From a virus, in IMG/VR virus record IMGVR_UViG_3300047287_000420, positions 20,286-84,285 of that record: a stretch of DNA of 64,000 nucleotides. The stretch is one strand, 5' to 3'. Shown here piece after piece: positions 10,472-54,880 of this stretch. The notes under the pieces are model-generated. The model searched no databases. It saw nothing but the letters and a program-made list of their open reading frames with translations, and was not told the origin of the DNA. Every line of letters begins with the position of its first letter. Position 1 is the stretch's first letter. Position numbers and translations under genes: made by a program.

Positions 10472-10595
10472 TCTGGATCAAAAAGCAATCGTTCTGCTGC
10501 TAGCAACGAAAAGCCTGAGTGGACCTTACCGCGACACGCGTAAGAAAAACTTCTTCAAGACTCTCGCCAAGACCCTTTACAAAATCTTCGACTGA
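10455..10595 (+). CDS. Small basic protein (46 aa) inside the MoxR/VWA cluster
   Basis: ATG 10455 lies 17 nt inside the end of the 403-aa gene in another frame; the stop TGA at 10593-10595 overlaps the ATPase ATG by one base. The product is 46 residues: a hydrophobic stretch (QKAIVLLLATKSLSG) and a basic tail (DTRKKNFFKTLAKTLYKIFD). Coupling on both sides argues that it is real. Confidence 0.65.
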   Translation: MNLTSNLDQKAIVLLLATKSLSGPYRDTRKKNFFKTLAKTLYKIFD

Positions 10596-11779
10596 TGAAC
10601 GACACTCTCTTTGCAAACCTCCAAGGCTTCCGCTCTTCGCTTAACACCAGCTTCCTGGAACGCGAAGACATTGTTGACGGACTTCTGGCTTCGCTTATCA
10701 CTAAACAAAATTGCTTCTTGTTTGGATTGCCTGGTACGGGTAAATCCGAATTGGTGCGAGCTGTTTCGAACGGATTCAAAGGATCTCAGTTCTTTGGTTA
10801 CCTGCTCTCGCCCACAACGGACCCGAGTGAACTGTTCGGCCCGGTGGCAGTTTCGAAGCTCCTAAAAGACGAGTATGTACGTGATGTCTCTGGATACTTA
10901 CCCAGTGCCAACATTGCATTCTTAGATGAGCTGTTCCGTGGCAGCTCTGCTGTACTTAACTCTCTCCTGACTATCCTCAACGAGCGTATCTTCAACAACG
11001 GTCGCGAAGTAATCGAAACTCCGATTCAATCAATCGTTGCTGCTACGAACAGTTTCCCTCAAGAGGAATCTCTTCAAGCCTTCTGTGATCGATTCTTGTT
11101 TAGACCGACAGTAGATCTTCTCAAAAAACCCACATCGAAGCGCACGCTTGACGCATGGGCCCTCGGTCTCAAGGACAGACCGACCGTTAAGTCAGATCTA
11201 ACTTTCGAAGATCTTCAACAGTTACAACAGGAGGTTGTATCAATCAAAGCTAGCGATGAGTTTCTTGATTCCTTCTCGCAAGTAATTGACCTTCTGGCCA
11301 CGCGGGGAATCACGATCAGCGACCGCCGCCGAGTTCAGATTCTTAAGTTCTTGCGTGGTTGGGCACTTGTGCAGGGAGATGAAGAACTCTATCCAGAGCA
11401 CCTGCACAGATCCTTAGTGCACATTGTGTACCAAACACAAGACGATGTACAAGTAATTAAGGAAGTTCTAGAGCAAGCAGTACCTACAGCAGAACGTCTC
11501 CTGGAAAGCATTAAGCGTGCTCACAGCGGGATCCTGACGGAATACCACGCGGTTCATTCGCAGGAATCTAAAAGCGTAGAGGATCTGAATCGGCTGGTAG
11601 GGAAGCTGCGAAAGATGCACCGTGATCTGGATACACTCTCTAACAAACTAGACAACATCTTAGAATCAGGTCAGTATCGAATCAGTGCAGGTGCTAGACA
11701 AACTGCTACCAAGCTCGCTCAAGCAATCGAATCCTCCTCTCAATCTGTAGCTACATCCATTTCGAACCTCTCCTCATGA
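10595..11779 (+). CDS. MoxR-family AAA+ ATPase
   Basis: 394 residues. Walker A GLPGTGKS at 44-51, Walker B IAFLDE at 107-112, sensor 1 Asn152 in AATNSF, and an arginine finger in DRFLFRP near 165-171: the order and spacing of the MoxR/RavA branch. The region from about 280 is helical and coiled-coil. MoxR ATPases work as chaperones with VWA-domain partners to mature or remodel a target protein complex. The VWA partner follows directly, sharing ATGA (11776-11779), so co-translation is expected. The target in the phage is unknown. Confidence 0.9.
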   Translation: MNDTLFANLQGFRSSLNTSFLEREDIVDGLLASLITKQNCFLFGLPGTGKSELVRAVSNGFKGSQFFGYLLSPTTDPSELFGPVAVSKLLKDEYVRDVSGYLPSANIAFLDELFRGSSAVLNSLLTILNERIFNNGREVIETPIQSIVAATNSFPQEESLQAFCDRFLFRPTVDLLKKPTSKRTLDAWALGLKDRPTVKSDLTFEDLQQLQQEVVSIKASDEFLDSFSQVIDLLATRGITISDRRRVQILKFLRGWALVQGDEELYPEHLHRSLVHIVYQTQDDVQVIKEVLEQAVPTAERLLESIKRAHSGILTEYHAVHSQESKSVEDLNRLVGKLRKMHRDLDTLSNKLDNILESGQYRISAGARQTATKLAQAIESSSQSVATSISNLSS

Positions 11780-13317
11780 AAACAAACACCGAGTTCCTCC
11801 GCCTGATAAACAACGAACCTTTGGTTCTTGCTGTTTCTCCGCTGTCGGACTTTCTGTGGGATGACTTTGTTCGGGACACTCGGCCAATCGTTAAGTATCT
11901 GGAGGATCGGTACAACATCAAACAGCTCTCTCGTTTCGGGAAAGAGTTATTCGACTTCCTGTACAACGGCGGTCAATGCACTACGGTCATCACTCTGGAT
12001 GAAGCTGAAACGTACTTTCGTGCGAAACAGAACGGCCAGAACCCAGAGTTCCCAAAGGGCTACAAGCCTGAATCAGCTTTTTGGGTGAACCTGTTCATTC
12101 AAGTGTGTGAGTCACCGGCATGGCCACGGCTGATGGGTCTTTCGGTCGGCGACCAGTTCACTGCAGGAAACAATGCTGTTAATGTACTCAATGAGCTGAG
12201 TGAAGTAATCGAATCTCAAATCGAACAGGGGATTCTTGACGTCGCATTACTGGCAGACGCAGGCAAAGAGCTGCAGGATATCCGTGAGCAGTTCATGGCC
12301 GCTAAAAAAGAAGGGGACAACGCAAAGGCAGCTCAACTTCGCCAGAAAGGAAAGGAGCTAGGTCAGCAGCTCGAAGAGTCTGTCCAACGAGCAGGTGAAG
12401 CTCTCCAGCCACAAGTGGATAAAGCGATTGATAAAGCGCACCAAAGCGCTAAGGACACTCAGGAAGCAATGAGCCAGCTTGCTGGTTCCGAAGCAGGGAA
12501 GGGCGTGGCGCTGAACGACCTGGAGCAGAAGCGCAAGCTTGCACGGAGGCTTAGTGCAAACCCCGGCCTCAAGCAACTAGTTCGGAAGTTAGGTGCTCTG
12601 CGTCAAGCTTGGGCGGATCGGAAGCGTGCACGTAAAGCACAGACAAAATACAGTGACATCGTTGGAGCGAAATTCTCTGATGAAGTCATCAAAGCGTACC
12701 CAGCTGAGATTGCGCTGGCTGCCACAGAGCAAGGGCGGGCCTTGTTTGCTCTCAAGTACAGCCAAAAGACTCTGCTCACTAAGGACTACGAAGCAAAGAT
12801 CAAAGAGCTCGATAAAGGTCCTGTTGTTATGTACATCGACATCAGCGGATCGATGGCAGGTGAGTCAGAGCTCTGGTCGAAAGCTATGGCTTACGTCATC
12901 GCAGAGGAATGCTTGAAGCAAAACAGGGCAACACACATTCACCTATTCGACACGGTGGTTCAGAAAAGTATTCATCTGGAGAAAGACAGAGCCGACAACG
13001 AAAAACTTCTGAACTTTGTTCTTAGTTGGACAACGAAAGGCGGAACTTCGTTCTGCTCGGTGATCGACCACGCGCTGACAAAGATCAATTTCGTTGAGAA
13101 AGCAGACATTTTGATGATTACAGATGGGAACGCCGAGGTATCTGATTCCTTCGTGCGGCGCCTAAATGCGTTCAAACAAGAGCACGGTGTTCAGTGGAAC
13201 AGCTTCTGCATAGGCAGACAAGCCCGTGTGCTCAAAGAGTTCAGTGATAATGTGCACACTGTAGATCCTCTAGATGACCCAAGCAGTGCCGAACTGTTTC
13301 AAGACGCGATGCGATAA
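11776..13317 (+). CDS. VWA (MIDAS) protein, partner of the MoxR ATPase
   Basis: 513 residues. The C-terminal third is a von Willebrand A domain: VVMYIDISGSMAGESELW around residue 355 gives the DxSxS metal site, TKGGTSF supplies the conserved Thr near 425, and MITDGNAE the Asp near 450. The N-terminal part is helical with a long charged coiled coil (about 150-240). The layout resembles CoxE/ViaA/CobT-like partners of MoxR ATPases. Start overlaps the ATPase stop by four bases. Confidence 0.88.
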   Translation: MKTNTEFLRLINNEPLVLAVSPLSDFLWDDFVRDTRPIVKYLEDRYNIKQLSRFGKELFDFLYNGGQCTTVITLDEAETYFRAKQNGQNPEFPKGYKPESAFWVNLFIQVCESPAWPRLMGLSVGDQFTAGNNAVNVLNELSEVIESQIEQGILDVALLADAGKELQDIREQFMAAKKEGDNAKAAQLRQKGKELGQQLEESVQRAGEALQPQVDKAIDKAHQSAKDTQEAMSQLAGSEAGKGVALNDLEQKRKLARRLSANPGLKQLVRKLGALRQAWADRKRARKAQTKYSDIVGAKFSDEVIKAYPAEIALAATEQGRALFALKYSQKTLLTKDYEAKIKELDKGPVVMYIDISGSMAGESELWSKAMAYVIAEECLKQNRATHIHLFDTVVQKSIHLEKDRADNEKLLNFVLSWTTKGGTSFCSVIDHALTKINFVEKADILMITDGNAEVSDSFVRRLNAFKQEHGVQWNSFCIGRQARVLKEFSDNVHTVDPLDDPSSAELFQDAMR

Positions 13318-14749: not shown

Positions 14750-16639
14750 ATGCAGATCCGTTACATCACAAGCAACAGCGAGTACCAGAAAGCTCTTGGG
14801 GAACTGCAGCTGATCCCCAAGGTATGCCTGGATTTGGAAACAACCGGCTTGGACTCACACGTGGCTAAAGCTCGGTTGCTTCAGCTGTGTACGACAGAGA
14901 ATATCGAAAGAACGGTGTACGTTCTTGATCTCTTCAAAATCACTGATACCAGTGGGCTGAAGGAATTTATTGAAAGCCGGGAGATGATTCTCGGCCACAA
15001 CTTAAATTTCGATTTTCAGTTTCTGCTGTCTCTCGGCATCGACTATCAAGGAAAGGTATTCGATACTTATGTAGCTGAGCGTTGTTTGCGGGCTGGTTTT
15101 AAGGAAAAGAAAGTTAGCCCGAAACTTCAGAAGCCATATTTCGATGACGTTAGCTGCTCACTGAAGGCTGTTGTTGAGAGACGACTCGAGATTGAAATTA
15201 GTAAAGAACAACAGGTTTCTGACTGGAGCAAACCTGATTTAGACATAGAGCAACTCGAATACGCAGCAAAGGACGTTGATCTCCTCCCCACGATCGCTGC
15301 GGATCAACTTAAAGAGCTAGCAGAAGAAGCTCTGCTCGATGTCTACTCGCTGGAATCTAAGTGCGTACGCCCCGTGGCACTGATGTGTCACAAAGGATTC
15401 AACGTAGATGTTACTAAGTTAGTAGCCCTAAAGCATACGATTGAGAAAAAGCTAGATGAAGTTACTCTAGAATTCTGCACTAAGCTTGACGACGCACTAC
15501 CAGAGGATCTAAAGCTACCCAGGAGAACCGATGGATCACTGGCAATTGGAAAAAACCTACGCAAAGAGTTCAACCCCGGATCCGGTGTCCAATGCACAAA
15601 GTGTTTCGAAGCACTTGGCATTGCACTTCCAACAAATCCAGGAACAGGAAAGAGCACTCTTAATCAGATCCAGCTCGCGGAATTTGATTCGGATGACCCG
15701 CTCCTAAACCTCTACCGAAAGCGCACAAAAATCGAAACTCAACTCGAACACGCAGAAAAACTAATCGCAAATATCAACCCTATAACACACAGAATTCACT
15801 CAGGTTATAACCAGTACGGAGCAAACTCCGGAAGATTCACTTCAAGCGGAGCTAAGAAAACAGCGGCCAAGAAAGTTAAAAGTCAGTTTGCGATCAACGC
15901 TCAACAGATTCCGAGAGACAAAGAGTTTCGGGAATGTTTCGTAGCCACGCCTGGTTACAAGCTGATCATCTGTGACTTCAGTCAGATTGAGTTACGCCTC
16001 GGTGCGGAGCTGATCGGAATCCCTCAGATGATTGAGGCATTTAAACAAGGTCATGATCTCCATACAGTTACCGCTAGTTTGATCTACAACATACCTCTAG
16101 AAGAAGTTCAGAAGAACCAGCGACAAGAAGGTAAAACGCTTAACTTTGCGTTGCTATACGGTATGGGCTTCCGTAAGTACAAAACATACGCAGCTCAAAG
16201 CGGGAAGATCATTTCCCTGTCTGAGGCAAAAGTAGCTCACACAGCGTTCCACAACGCATACCCACGCCTAAGGCAGTGGCACCGAGAGCGTGCTGCCATG
16301 GTCGAAGATGGGTGGACTTTCGTAAGAACTCCGTTAGGTCGCAGGCGTCTGCTTTCTTACTCAGATGCAACCATGACTGCCTGTGCCAATACGCTTATAC
16401 AAGGTGCCGGTGCTGATATCCTTAAGCTGTCGTTAGCCAAGCTCAACCCTTATCTGTGCGATGAAGCTTACTTAGTTGCCTGTGTCCACGATGAAATCGT
16501 TCTAGAGGCTGCAGAAACAAAAGTTGAGTACTACAAGGAAGTACTTGAGCGCTGTATGAAAGAAGCCGCTGAAACGATTTTAAAAGAGGTACCAGCTAAA
16601 GCAGACGCTAGCTACGGAGACACCTGGTCTGAAAAATGA
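14750..16639 (+). CDS. Family A DNA polymerase with 3'-5' exonuclease
   Basis: 629 residues from ATG 14750; an in-frame extension upstream runs through the previous gene and the terminator and is rejected. Exonuclease motifs of the DEDD type: CLDLETTGLD near residue 26, LGHNLNFDFQFLL near 84, and EYAAKDVDLL near 165. Polymerase motifs: A in DFSQIELRLG near 407, B in KTLNFALLYG near 461, and C in CVHDEIVLE near 579. There is no 5'-3' exonuclease domain. The residue at the E. coli Phe762 position is Phe. It is the likely replicative polymerase. Confidence 0.95.
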   Translation: MQIRYITSNSEYQKALGELQLIPKVCLDLETTGLDSHVAKARLLQLCTTENIERTVYVLDLFKITDTSGLKEFIESREMILGHNLNFDFQFLLSLGIDYQGKVFDTYVAERCLRAGFKEKKVSPKLQKPYFDDVSCSLKAVVERRLEIEISKEQQVSDWSKPDLDIEQLEYAAKDVDLLPTIAADQLKELAEEALLDVYSLESKCVRPVALMCHKGFNVDVTKLVALKHTIEKKLDEVTLEFCTKLDDALPEDLKLPRRTDGSLAIGKNLRKEFNPGSGVQCTKCFEALGIALPTNPGTGKSTLNQIQLAEFDSDDPLLNLYRKRTKIETQLEHAEKLIANINPITHRIHSGYNQYGANSGRFTSSGAKKTAAKKVKSQFAINAQQIPRDKEFRECFVATPGYKLIICDFSQIELRLGAELIGIPQMIEAFKQGHDLHTVTASLIYNIPLEEVQKNQRQEGKTLNFALLYGMGFRKYKTYAAQSGKIISLSEAKVAHTAFHNAYPRLRQWHRERAAMVEDGWTFVRTPLGRRRLLSYSDATMTACANTLIQGAGADILKLSLAKLNPYLCDEAYLVACVHDEIVLEAAETKVEYYKEVLERCMKEAAETILKEVPAKADASYGDTWSEK

Positions 16640-28844: not shown

Positions 28845-30080
28845 TCAGCTAGCCAGGATTACCCAGCCACTCTTAGGCCCTTCGACAAGGAATCGAGGTC
28901 CCAAGTTTTTCTTGGAATACAAGCGGTACTTCCCATCAGTAGAAACGTAAGACCCACCAATCAGATCGAGATCGCCGAAAGGATCATGCACCCAGAGTTT
29001 CTGGCGGTCTGCGGTGATGCCCACGCAGCAGATCCAGTGGCCGCCTCCAACAGGATTGGAGACCGGACCTTTGTGGAGGATGCCCATCGGAACAGGGATG
29101 CCTCGCTTGAGTTGTTGCTCGACGGTATCCCAGCTCGCATTCTGGACAAACTTAGCGTCGACACCAAAGTGCTTCAGAGTGTCCAGCTGAGCTGTAGCCG
29201 ATGTGGTATCACCGTACTTATACACCTCATTAATGTACTCATCGTCAGTCTCAATTGCGTCAGGATCGAGAGCCGCCAGGAGCATCGCACAACTGCTAGA
29301 GAAGCAGGTGCGCATGGGATCTTTCTTGTTATCTCGTTGAGAGAAGTAGGGAACAACTAGTTTGATCTCACCGTCTGTCTTAGGTGGTGTCTCCTGCGTC
29401 TCTAAGTCGTTAATAATCTTCCAGTGATCCGGGAAGAACCACCATTCAACTTCCGGTTGCTTTTCTAAAAGCACTCGTTGGTGGGCCTCGCCGGCATACA
29501 TCCTGATTTCAGTCCACTGCCACGCGCTGCCCTTAGGGACAAAAAGCTTCTCCTCAGCCTTCAGGGTGCTGGAGTCAACAGGGTGACGCTTGAGCCAAGT
29601 ATCACGCTTCGCAAGGAGAGACTTAGCCAAGAGAGGATGCTTCACCTTCTCTAAGAATAACTTTTTCTCCTCTTCCCGGCGCCTAACCAGGCCAGGGACA
29701 GCTTCATCACTGCCGGCTTTGACCCATCTGGCGAATTCACCTGCTACGACCTTGCGATCAGCTCCATGATTAAGCAGACGCAGCATTGTGCTGTTGACGA
29801 ACGCTGTCGGCCCGACATTAAACGTAAAAGAAACTAGTGCATCATATTCATTCTGATTAAGTTTTACGCTTACAAAACTACTGACTGTCTGCTGCGCACT
29901 CTCGGTGTCGGCCCACAGCAGACGCTCAGCTTCCTCTTCGGTGATGCGCATTCCTGGTTGCACATCAGAACCAGTATGCCCATAGCCGATAGTCAATACA
30001 CCGGCAGGACAGACATAGGCTGTCAGCCGAATACCTTCAAACTTTTTGATTAAATCTATCCCCTTCTGCGAAATACGCAT
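28845..30080 (-). CDS. Two-domain endolysin: GH24 lysozyme plus C39-like peptidase
   Basis: 411 residues. Residues 1-145 are a phage lysozyme of family GH24: E15, C24 and T30 give the E-x8-(D/C)-x5-T pattern in KKFEGIRLTAYVCPAGVLT. Residues about 155-225 look like a linker or wall-binding domain of a cyanobacterial type. Residues 240-411 resemble C39-like cysteine peptidases, with Cys264 in TCFSSSCAM, His348 in GGGHWICC and Asp366 in HDPFGD. It could cut both glycan and peptide parts of the wall. No signal peptide, so a holin is expected. Confidence 0.85.
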   Translation of the reverse strand: MRISQKGIDLIKKFEGIRLTAYVCPAGVLTIGYGHTGSDVQPGMRITEEEAERLLWADTESAQQTVSSFVSVKLNQNEYDALVSFTFNVGPTAFVNSTMLRLLNHGADRKVVAGEFARWVKAGSDEAVPGLVRRREEEKKLFLEKVKHPLLAKSLLAKRDTWLKRHPVDSSTLKAEEKLFVPKGSAWQWTEIRMYAGEAHQRVLLEKQPEVEWWFFPDHWKIINDLETQETPPKTDGEIKLVVPYFSQRDNKKDPMRTCFSSSCAMLLAALDPDAIETDDEYINEVYKYGDTTSATAQLDTLKHFGVDAKFVQNASWDTVEQQLKRGIPVPMGILHKGPVSNPVGGGHWICCVGITADRQKLWVHDPFGDLDLIGGSYVSTDGKYRLYSKKNLGPRFLVEGPKSGWVILAS

Positions 30081-47001: not shown

Positions 47002-47826
47002 TTAAATAACAGAGGAAGGAGCACTAAAAGCACCTAAAGCTTGAGCTAGAAGTTCGGCCTTAGCTACCTCCGCCGCTGCTACGTTACTTTGGAGATTTCT
47101 CGCCAAATCCTGCTCAACTGCCTGTTGATACTGTTCAGTGTTTTGACGCCCTTTATACGCATCTAGTATTATTCCAAGCTCTTGCTGCGCTGGGCTGACG
47201 GAGCTCTCAGAATAATCCGGCATTTCCGGAGTAGGTAAAGCGGAGCGCTGGCCGAACCCACGGCCGCCCATCACTCCCATCATGTCGATAAATTTGTTTA
47301 GTAAACCTATCCCTAGTCCAGAACTTTTAGCAGCTGCATCCTGCTGAGATGTGGGTTTAGCTGCGGCGGCTGCAGTAGCTCCTTGCTTTTCAGCAAACTG
47401 ACGCAGAGACTCAAAACTTTTTACCGGCTGCCCATAAGCACTTTTGCCTTGCAACGTGGGCAAAGAAGCCCAAGTTCCCGATAACTTAGCAACAGTCTCT
47501 TTAGTGATCGGGTCACGATCAGGGTTTACTCCCTTTGATCGAATAAGCGCTAGTGCAGCAATATCTTGAGATCTCGGCCCAAAATCTTTAAGTCCCTGCT
47601 GCTTGGCTACACCAGCCCAGGTATCAGGCATAAACTGATAAGCACCAGCCGCTGCACTGGAGTACTTACCGCCGTGAACCACTTGGTTCGGATGACGGCT
47701 TAGATCCTTGATTGGTTTATATCCAAACGTAATATCGTAACGTGGCGCAGAACCTCCCCAAGTACCCTCAGCGTAAGAAAGCAGATTTAGCCAACGACGC
47801 GCGTTAGGGCTTATAGGATCACTCAT
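47002..47826 (-). CDS. Virion-associated peptidoglycan lytic enzyme, GH104-like
   Basis: 274 residues. Residues 1-150 match lambda-R-type lytic transglycosylases: LLSYAEGTWG (catalytic Glu about residue 19), YDITFGYKP, and SSAAAGAYQFMPDTWAGVAK near 57-76. A linker rich in Ala/Gln and a helical tail follow. It sits among internal virion genes and probably opens the wall during DNA entry. Confidence 0.83.
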   Translation of the reverse strand: MSDPISPNARRWLNLLSYAEGTWGGSAPRYDITFGYKPIKDLSRHPNQVVHGGKYSSAAAGAYQFMPDTWAGVAKQQGLKDFGPRSQDIAALALIRSKGVNPDRDPITKETVAKLSGTWASLPTLQGKSAYGQPVKSFESLRQFAEKQGATAAAAAKPTSQQDAAAKSSGLGIGLLNKFIDMMGVMGGRGFGQRSALPTPEMPDYSESSVSPAQQELGIILDAYKGRQNTEQYQQAVEQDLARNLQSNVAAAEVAKAELLAQALGAFSAPSSVI

Positions 47827-48052
47827 CCTCTTCTTCGTCGAATATATCTATATTAGTGTCAATAGCCACGCCGATTTCCTCCATAACTGATTTAAAAGCC
47901 CGTTCGCGACATACAAATCTAAAAATTGTTTTCCATAAATACTGATCTCGATCTTCTCCTTTGAGAGCGTGGGCGGCGTTCTTTAGCCGTGTCAGGGTGA
48001 AGTCGTCTTCTAAAGTCAGGCCGACGTGAAGCTGCCCTTTCTCGTCTCTCAC
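47819..48052 (-). CDS. Hypothetical acidic protein
   Basis: 77 residues ending in an acidic tail (IDIFDEEEDE). Overlaps the lytic enzyme gene by 8 nt. Unrecognised. Confidence 0.65.
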   Translation of the reverse strand: MRDEKGQLHVGLTLEDDFTLTRLKNAAHALKGEDRDQYLWKTIFRFVCRERAFKSVMEEIGVAIDTNIDIFDEEEDE

Positions 48053-48106: not shown

Positions 48107-48355
48107 TCACCAACTCTTGCAGGCCCAATAACGAGCTTTCAGCTTACTGCCAGGGTTATCGCAGTTATGGCGTGCTCTAAAGTTTTCACGACGTTCTGGA
48201 ATGTGTTTTTTGATCGTCATGTTAGGATCTCCAAACCGAACGAGACGAACCTCATCACCTTCCTTGGCGGCCACGGCGAACTTCTTGCCTCCGTCTGAGT
48301 CCCGGCGAGGCTGGTTGTACCCCTTGAAAATCTCGCCAGCGATGCGGATCGCCAT
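48107..48355 (-). CDS. Conserved small phage protein
   Basis: 82 residues. GGKKFAVAAKEGDEVRLVRF, GDPNMTIKKHIPERRENFRA and ARYWACKSW form a pattern I recognise from many marine phages (a DUF6321-like protein). Function unknown; often near structural genes. Two Cys and His could bind metal. Confidence 0.78.
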   Translation of the reverse strand: MAIRIAGEIFKGYNQPRRDSDGGKKFAVAAKEGDEVRLVRFGDPNMTIKKHIPERRENFRARHNCDNPGSKLKARYWACKSW

Positions 48356-48490
48356 AGCCCTGGTCTAGTGCGTCTCCTCAGTCTACTGGGTTCAAACATA
48401 AAATTAACCTTAAGCTCAGAATCACAGATTCACTTCATGAAGATTCCTGCTAACCTTTTCGCGTTGTCTTCATTCACAACGCCACATTAA

Positions 48491-48742
48491 ATGGAATCCG
48501 CAAGGCTCTTGACAATCGCCCAGACCGCTGAGCTGCTGAACTGCTCTGCAGGCTTTGTACGTAAGCGTATCTCTCTGACTGAATCCAACCAGCCCGGAGG
48601 CTGGCCCAAGGGCATCTTCGTCAACCTGCAGCCCAACGGAGCCAAGTCCCTCTATCGCATCAATAAGGATGCACTTGAGGCTTACCTGAGTTCTAACGAA
48701 GAAGAGGCTAAAGTAGAAGAAAGCGCTGCTTGCGCTGTCTGA
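48491..48742 (+). CDS. Excisionase/MerR-type HTH protein
   Basis: 83 residues. LLTIAQTAELLNCSAGFVRK followed by RISLTE and YRINKDALEAYL is the HTH_17 layout. It starts a two-gene plus-strand island with the Dps-like gene (9 nt apart), which it might regulate. Confidence 0.75.
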   Translation: MESARLLTIAQTAELLNCSAGFVRKRISLTESNQPGGWPKGIFVNLQPNGAKSLYRINKDALEAYLSSNEEEAKVEESAACAV

Positions 48743-48751
48743 TAGGTAGCC

Positions 48752-49291
48752 ATGAACTCCTCCTTAGCAAACATTTTCCAAAGCGCAGCTCAGGCTCCGA
48801 CTCAAGAAATTGTTAAGGAGGAGCTCATTCTTACAAAGGAGGCCACGCCTGATAACCTCGCTTATCAGATGGTCTCCTTTGCCTCCTATTTATATCAATT
48901 AAACGTCCAAGCTCATCTGTTGCACCTGAACGTAGAGTGCTCTAACTTCTTAGCCGTTCATGAGTTCTTAAAAGGACAATACGAACAGCACATTGGAGAC
49001 TTCGATACTCTGGCCGAGTTAGTCCGCAGCATGGACTATCTGATGCCAATGTGTCAGTGCGGCCTGTTCGACGCTTATAAAAAGTTCCCGTCTGTGAAGA
49101 CCTACGATGCACGCGAAGGTCTCACTCTGTACACCAAGAATCTTGAAGCTGGAGCGATGCTCGCTAAAGATCTTGTCGAAGCAGCACGCGAAACCGGAGC
49201 TCCTGACGTTGAAAATTATGCTGCGGACACCTGTGGCCGGTTATTTAAAGGAGCTTGGATGTTAAAAGCCACGCTGCGTGGATCTATGTGA
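48752..49291 (+). CDS. Dps-like ferritin
   Basis: 179 residues. The Dps signature region is readable: AHLLHLNVECSNFLAVHEFL (residues about 54-73) and YEQHIGDFDTLAELVRSM (about 77-94) keep the ferroxidase-site residues His, His, Asp and Glu in the usual order and spacing. The four-helix length agrees with Dps; the N-terminal tail is about 35 residues longer. Dps oxidises iron with peroxide and can bind DNA. In a phage it could shield DNA or manage iron during infection. Ends overlapping a minus-strand fibre gene by 8 nt. Confidence 0.75.
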   Translation: MNSSLANIFQSAAQAPTQEIVKEELILTKEATPDNLAYQMVSFASYLYQLNVQAHLLHLNVECSNFLAVHEFLKGQYEQHIGDFDTLAELVRSMDYLMPMCQCGLFDAYKKFPSVKTYDAREGLTLYTKNLEAGAMLAKDLVEAARETGAPDVENYAADTCGRLFKGAWMLKATLRGSM

Positions 49292-49778
49292 GGATCCAGC
49301 CGCCATTAGCGGAAACATAAAGGCCGCTCGCACCCGAATTTAAATAAACAGTCAATCCGTCAGAAGCTGGCGGAAGAGCAGCAACAACTGCAATTCCGCT
49401 GGCTGTGACTGCAGAATTTGCTCTATTTGCGGTAGTAGCTGTCGTAGCACTTGTTGCTGAGTCAGCAAAGCCAGCACCAACTTTTTGCCAAGCACTTCCT
49501 GTCCATACCCTTAAGTAATAGCTTGAGGTAGAAGAATCAGTCCAAGTTTCTCCGACTGAATTCCCGACAGAGCCTACAGGGGCAGAATTAGGTGCAGTTG
49601 TGCCGTAGTGATTCGATCCAAACTTACGAATAGCCCCAGCCGAATCTTTGAAGTAAAGACCAGGATCAGAGGCACCAAAGCTCATAGCCGTCTCTCCGGC
49701 TTGAACTGTTGAAGTATTGGGCCTGTCGGAAGAGTTACCGCTGCGCTTAGTGAGAATAATTACCGGCGTGGAAGCCAT
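49284..49778 (-). CDS. Tail fibre-like protein
   Basis: 164 residues. The start PVIILTKRSGNSSDRPNTST then AGETAMSFGASDPGLYFKD is typical of cyanophage fibre attachment regions, and SATSATTATTANRANSAVTA is a short Ala/Thr heptad rod. Probably attaches to the protein encoded just upstream. Confidence 0.78.
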   Translation of the reverse strand: MASTPVIILTKRSGNSSDRPNTSTVQAGETAMSFGASDPGLYFKDSAGAIRKFGSNHYGTTAPNSAPVGSVGNSVGETWTDSSTSSYYLRVWTGSAWQKVGAGFADSATSATTATTANRANSAVTASGIAVVAALPPASDGLTVYLNSGASGLYVSANGGWILT

Positions 49779-54259: not shown

Positions 54260-54880
54260 TTAGCGCCAATTAGCATAAAAGTAGAGTCGGTCCGAACGCG
54301 AAACATCCGGGGGACCAGGGATAGCTTGTATAAACTCACCGCCGCTTCTTTCGAAACGATAACGAGCTGCCACAGGATCGCGATAGTTCGGCACGTAGAG
54401 CATGTGAGCTAAGCGATCACACTCAAACTGATAATTCTCTCTCCAGATACGTGCTGTTTCCCTCTTATCCTGAATGCTGATAGAACGAGACACGTCACCA
54501 AGAATTGTTTCTTGACGACTCGTAGCCCGCCCCGTGGCCAGCTCAGTTAAGCGCTCGGCTTCCTCGCAACGCTCAACCTGTTGAACAATCTTGTCAAAGT
54601 AAAACTCACTAGGGACGCTATTGCAAGCTTCTAATAACCTTGCGTAGTCTCCAGCAGGTACAGTTGCAATATTGTAACCTAAGTGATACGCAACACGACT
54701 AAAGTTAAAGTCGTCTAACGCGTATCCAAATACTTGTGCAGGGTTTCTAGTTAGCTGATTAACAGCCGAGTAGATTACTTCTCGTTTAGTGGCGTCAGTA
54801 GTTGTCGCCTGAAAAACAACACCCTGCTGAGCTAGATAAGACTGAATCTGCTCTAACTCATTCTGGCTCAGCTGCGCCAC
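54260..54880 (-). CDS. Virion protein, possible tail or connector component
   Basis: 206 residues, helical with a C-terminal strand region (RYRFERSGGEFIQAIPG). Size and place between capsid genes and large internal protein suggest a connector or tail-tube component; no motif confirms it. Confidence 0.7.
   Translation of the reverse strand: MAQLSQNELEQIQSYLAQQGVVFQATTTDATKREVIYSAVNQLTRNPAQVFGYALDDFNFSRVAYHLGYNIATVPAGDYARLLEACNSVPSEFYFDKIVQQVERCEEAERLTELATGRATSRQETILGDVSRSISIQDKRETARIWRENYQFECDRLAHMLYVPNYRDPVAARYRFERSGGEFIQAIPGPPDVSRSDRLYFYANWR

Follow-up and report, generated by a model that had tools for sequence, protein, structure and literature searches.

What a Dps-like ferritin does for a phage is the question raised by a gene at 48752..49291 (+) of the window, by which we mean the whole 64,000-base stretch of DNA analysed here, part of a viral record of 84,285 bases. 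The encoded protein of 179 aa is a true Dps-type miniferritin by family, fold and ligand conservation, and phage Dps as such is already known from the annotation of Synechococcus phage S-EIV1, from Lactobacillus phages and from gut phages. As far as the literature searched shows, the new elements are the near-core status of the gene, its pairing with a helix-turn-helix (HTH) gene, a hallmark of the viral iron site, and a subclade that lacks this site yet remains constrained; literature on Dps and cyanophage, where searched, yielded no description of this family.

Identity and iron centre of the phage Dps

The preliminary description had recognized a Dps-like ferritin in a phage, and the ORF coordinates are exact and the assignment was borne out by profile, fold and structure matches. 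The protein scores 31.2 bits against PF00210, above the curated cut-off of 24.5, and matches phrog_3636 ('DNA binding protein', E=5e-19); its closest solved-structure relatives in a sequence search are Dps proteins, and it shares 46% identity, over 83% of the query, with the 'DNA-binding ferritin-like protein' of S-EIV1 (AHV82153.1, KJ410740). AlphaFold2, run on an alignment of 36 viral sequences, predicts a four-helix bundle with a short BC helix (mean pLDDT 80.8), in which helices at residues 33-60, 66-93, 102-106 (short), 120-148 and 151-176 reproduce the Dps layout and residues 1-30 are predicted at low confidence. The Foldseek matches listed for this model in the PDB are Dps or Dps-like proteins, with probability 1.00 and an rmsd of mostly ~2 Å. 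The protein falls below the cut-offs of the NCBIfam Dps equivalog NF006975 (21.9 vs 114) and the cyanobacterial DpsA model NF052461 (19.7 vs 300), which places it within the Dps superfamily and outside both equivalogs. Chance is excluded: we obtained ~76 distinct relatives of the protein, and the pairwise dN/dS of the viral Dps, 0.01-0.08 in the tested pairs, indicates strong purifying selection.

An alignment that took in cyanobacterial, proteobacterial and E. coli Dps confirmed that the four ferroxidase ligands are in place, with H58, H70, D85 and E89 corresponding to E. coli H51, H63, D78 and E82; H55 was rejected as the first ligand, which the alignment puts at H58. All four are kept in 75 of 77 distinct viral sequences, and the window Dps also has equivalents of all three residues of the core metal site of Listeria Dps (His31, Asp58 and Glu62; PMC8389677). 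Fold and ligands are shared with cellular Dps, including E. coli Dps, Helicobacter NAP, Campylobacter 3kwo and cyanobacterial Dps, but the surroundings of the site are not. Where E. coli has D67, the usual fifth acidic residue four residues past the second His, the window Dps has K74; the 77 viral sequences have Lys (66), Gly (7), Gln (2), Arg (1) or Asn (1) there and never Asp or Glu, whereas a cellular sample of 34 rows, which includes two bacterioferritins besides Dps, has Glu (21), Asp (5), Met (4), Asn (3) or Gln (1), and is acidic in 26/34. An acid at this position is not strictly defining for Dps, since some cellular Dps lack it. Cellular Dps have a Trp after the first ligand, for which the viral copies have Leu or Phe. 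H80, D95 and C101 vary little or not at all among viral copies, unlike among cellular ones, and the R92-C101 region (RSMDYLMPMC) is invariant across the viral family and differs in cellular Dps. By sequence comparison, the viral iron centre is a variant of the cellular Dps centre that retains its four ligands. K74 probably alters the second iron site, so that turnover may differ from that of E. coli Dps.

Distribution, descent and host

A scan of IMG/VR for relatives returned 163 related stretches, from which 80 loci were kept. The HTH gene lies directly upstream of Dps, amid the same surrounding virion genes, in 60 of the 80, an S-EIV1-type arrangement is found in 19, and the remaining one is cut off. 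To avoid selecting on Dps itself, the core-gene test picked loci by a gene of the virion block (54260-54880, minus strand); among the 32 contigs in which the whole slot is visible, Dps is present in 31 and the HTH gene in all 32. The gene used for this selection encodes a 206-aa protein (phrog_29158) that retains ~90% identity across the lineage, far above its neighbours. Contig L395 carries a clean deletion of Dps (15839-16119) in which almost nothing separates the HTH gene from the tail gene; its 82-kb record contains no Dps elsewhere. Retention of the HTH gene in this Dps-less phage indicates that it probably has a role beyond Dps.

In an unrooted tree, all viral Dps fall on one side of a very long, fully supported branch (100/100). 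No viral-clade Dps was found in 292 cyanobacterial genomes, in which the best match to the viral Dps profile reached 50.8 bits, compared with 238-306 bits for viral records; on this score and the separate viral clade, recent capture from a cyanobacterial host was rejected for the sampled genomes. A search of 84,980 species genomes with two conserved peptide patterns, a limited test, likewise turned up no Dps of the viral type. We read Dps as a gene that is vertically inherited and nearly core in the phages related to S-EIV1.

S-EIV1 is the only cultured relative that we found, and its portal and major capsid protein are 43 and 69% identical, respectively, to those of the window. Its Dps belongs to the same viral clade, with the RSMDY motif and Lys or Gly for the acidic fifth position, but adjoins a sulfate adenylyltransferase gene rather than an HTH gene. 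In the S-EIV1 lineage, Dps sits elsewhere in the genome, upstream of the primase region, and the N-terminal tail is basic where that of the window lineage is acidic. Dps is also encoded by Lactobacillus phages (PMC6669764) and by gut 'Gratiaviridae' phages (PMC8008677), for which the authors propose a role in oxidative stress tolerance; the gut phages carrying Dps include Bacteroides phages. These belong to different phage groups and hosts, and their Dps went undetected by tblastn from either query. As a separate observation, the S-EIV1 counterpart of the window major capsid protein (~69% identical) is a 383-aa ORF (L084:30860-32011, equal to KJ410740 60859-62010, plus strand), over most of which KJ410740 annotates a minus-strand hypothetical protein, AHV82227.1; the major head protein gene of S-EIV1 seems to have been missed in that annotation.

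The photosynthetic host assumed in the preliminary description gains some support from this kinship, as S-EIV1 infects freshwater Synechococcus, with a reported latent period of >7 days (PMC8790148), and from a small, distantly NblA-like gene at 47819..48052 (-). PF04485 is matched by 11 of 18 relatives of the NblA-like protein (best E=5e-4), the window copy itself scoring 15.9 bits against a cut-off of 25, and its best PDB match is NblA 1ojh (E=0.19). On the other side, no psbA or hli was found in the phage, and 400 genomes of one picocyanobacterial family yielded no host match, a negative that carries little information. At the DNA level, the one similarity to a cultured phage was a stretch of 87 bases shared with a Roseobacter phage. 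A cyanobacterial host is likely on indirect evidence, S-EIV1 kinship and the NblA-like neighbour pointing to one that bears phycobilisomes, and it is possible that this neighbour serves as a phycobilisome-degradation adaptor. In the window lineage, the NblA-like protein (LTLEDEF...RERAYK) is conserved next to HTH and Dps at most loci.

The HTH-Dps unit and its surroundings

Dps is the second gene of a pair whose first member, at 48491..48742 (+), encodes an excisionase-family HTH protein of 83 aa. The plus-strand island that the two genes were said to form within the minus-strand virion block is real and is conserved in relatives, with 9 nt between HTH end and Dps start in the window, a gap that in most relatives measures 1-13 nt. 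The label 'excisionase-like' holds at the family level: the window protein scores 26.8 against HTH_17 (cut-off 27.0) and 26.8 against TIGR01764 (cut-off 28.8), and HTH_17 is matched in 16/16 relatives. A true excisionase was rejected, as the 84-kb record, which is possibly incomplete, contains no match to a tyrosine integrase (PF00589); because an excisionase-family HTH protein occurs here without such an integrase in the record, it is more probably a regulator.

Upstream of the HTH gene lies an extended -10-like, promoter-like element, TGCTAACCT-N5-CGTTG (48448..48466, plus strand), which has a single exact copy in the window, every other match having 3 mismatches. Of 42 distinct regions, 29 have a TGCTAAYCT-like motif upstream of HTH, in most cases at a constant distance, compared with 1.45% of random stretches; the regions are related to one another, so that this count still includes kinship. 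An HTH regulon acting through the promoter element was rejected, as the window holds no second good copy. The element is overlapped by a perfect inverted repeat, GCGTTG-N10-CAACGC (48461..48482), a candidate operator with one exact match in the window that is retained in near relatives and degenerate in distant ones. With up to 2 mismatches, the repeat has nine near-matches in the window versus 2.6 expected, several of them within the virion block, and these near-palindromes may represent coding bias or operator-like sites.

On its other side, Dps overlaps tail-to-tail by 8 bp (49284..49291) with a convergent minor tail protein-like gene (49284..49778, minus strand; phrog_356, E=8e-19) that holds the same position in relatives, and no conventional terminator was found downstream of Dps. 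The divergent neighbour at 48107..48355 (-) encodes 82 aa (phrog_7595) and resembles, over a short stretch of DNA, a gene for an 'HVA1 family protein' in Roseobacter phage CRP-901. Elsewhere in the window, we observed a T4-type phage lysozyme fused to a C39-like cysteine peptidase domain (28845-30080, minus strand) and a MoxR-type AAA ATPase (bpMoxR) followed directly by a 513-aa protein (10595-13317, plus strand).

Possible functions of the phage Dps

From what is directly established, namely family, fold, ligand conservation, the two-gene arrangement and purifying selection, we infer a cage together with its activity, regulation, timing and benefit. The explanation that we favour, with confidence slightly better than even, is that a vertically inherited, near-core Dps is made in the infected cell as a cage detoxifying Fe(II) and peroxide. 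The HTH protein would regulate the HTH-Dps unit from the unit's own promoter, Dps would assemble inside the infected cell as a cage of 12 subunits, and Fe(II) would be bound at H58/D85/E89 and oxidised with peroxide or oxygen. Over a long infection, this would limit the Fenton damage suffered by phage DNA during replication and by the photosynthetic apparatus. Protection against peroxide and iron, as suggested in the preliminary description, agrees with the retention of all four ligands in 75 of 77 sequences and is weakened by a site unlike that of cellular Dps, with Lys for Asp/Glu and Leu for Trp. Also against the favoured explanation are the occurrence of Phe as well as Leu for Trp, the single Dps loss, and a subclade in which the iron site itself has been dismantled.

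In this site-less subclade (L055-L058 and L094; five contigs with two distinct proteins), H58, H70 and D85 are replaced by S, S and N. Structure prediction still gives the four-helix fold (pLDDT 81), and the two proteins, which differ at 29 nucleotides (dN 0.016, dS 0.235), have a dN/dS of 0.067, a value for selection in this subclade that comes from a single sequence pair. Since selection persists although three ligands are lost, part of the subclade's function is independent of the ferroxidase centre. It is conceivable, though we consider it unlikely, that the main role of the viral Dps does not involve iron oxidation and that the cage or dimer is structural, for example binding a partner from phage or host through RSMDYLMPMC, with the iron site secondary; the invariance of this R92-C101 segment in the viral family, where cellular Dps vary, fits such a role, but the four ligands kept in nearly all viral sequences are hard to explain if unused. 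Equally doubtful is the corresponding proposal that the viral cage has a phage-specific, non-ferroxidase function (partner binding or particle-related), for which iron chemistry, because the site-less subclade remains constrained, would be dispensable though retained in most lineages.

Packing of Dps in the virion, or a helper role in capsid or tail assembly, seems distinctly improbable. The gene is located among virion genes, and fold matches in a viral library (BFVD) include long uncultured-phage proteins that carry the entry name 'Prohead protease' (A0A6J7WPK9, A0A6J7XDU5 and A0A6J7WIS1), which suggests that a Dps domain may be fused to a capsid-assembly protease in some other phages. Gene position is nevertheless weak evidence for virion incorporation, because Dps is on the strand opposite to the virion genes and has its own conserved promoter-like element, and Dps of the S-EIV1 lineage lies away from this block, near the primase region. 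We give little credence to a nucleoid-compacting role in which Dps binds DNA, whether to shield that of the phage or to condense that of the host. Tails of the S-EIV1 lineage are basic (KPKAPxKSK, with a net charge that is usually +1 to +3), like those of DNA-binding Dps, but those of the window lineage are acidic (net -2 to -8, pI near 5), and residues 1-32 of the window Dps carry a net charge of -2 rather than a basic tail. Tail-mediated DNA binding is therefore unlikely in the window lineage, and the earlier suggestion of DNA protection, insofar as it implies binding, is unsupported there; on this point the two lineages may diverge. A role in withholding or storing iron for the phage, controlling the iron freed at lysis, is very improbable: it would follow from any ferritin activity, nothing specific to it was found, and we noticed no further iron gene nearby.

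Phage Dps has usually been regarded as a sporadic auxiliary gene, and here it appears as a near-core, vertically inherited gene with a conserved probable regulator in a widespread S-EIV1-related group. Phages with the site-less protein or the natural deletion offer ready comparisons by which iron oxidation can be told apart from other roles, and the near-core Dps makes this group well suited to testing how phages cope with iron and reactive oxygen in cells that are presumably photosynthetic.
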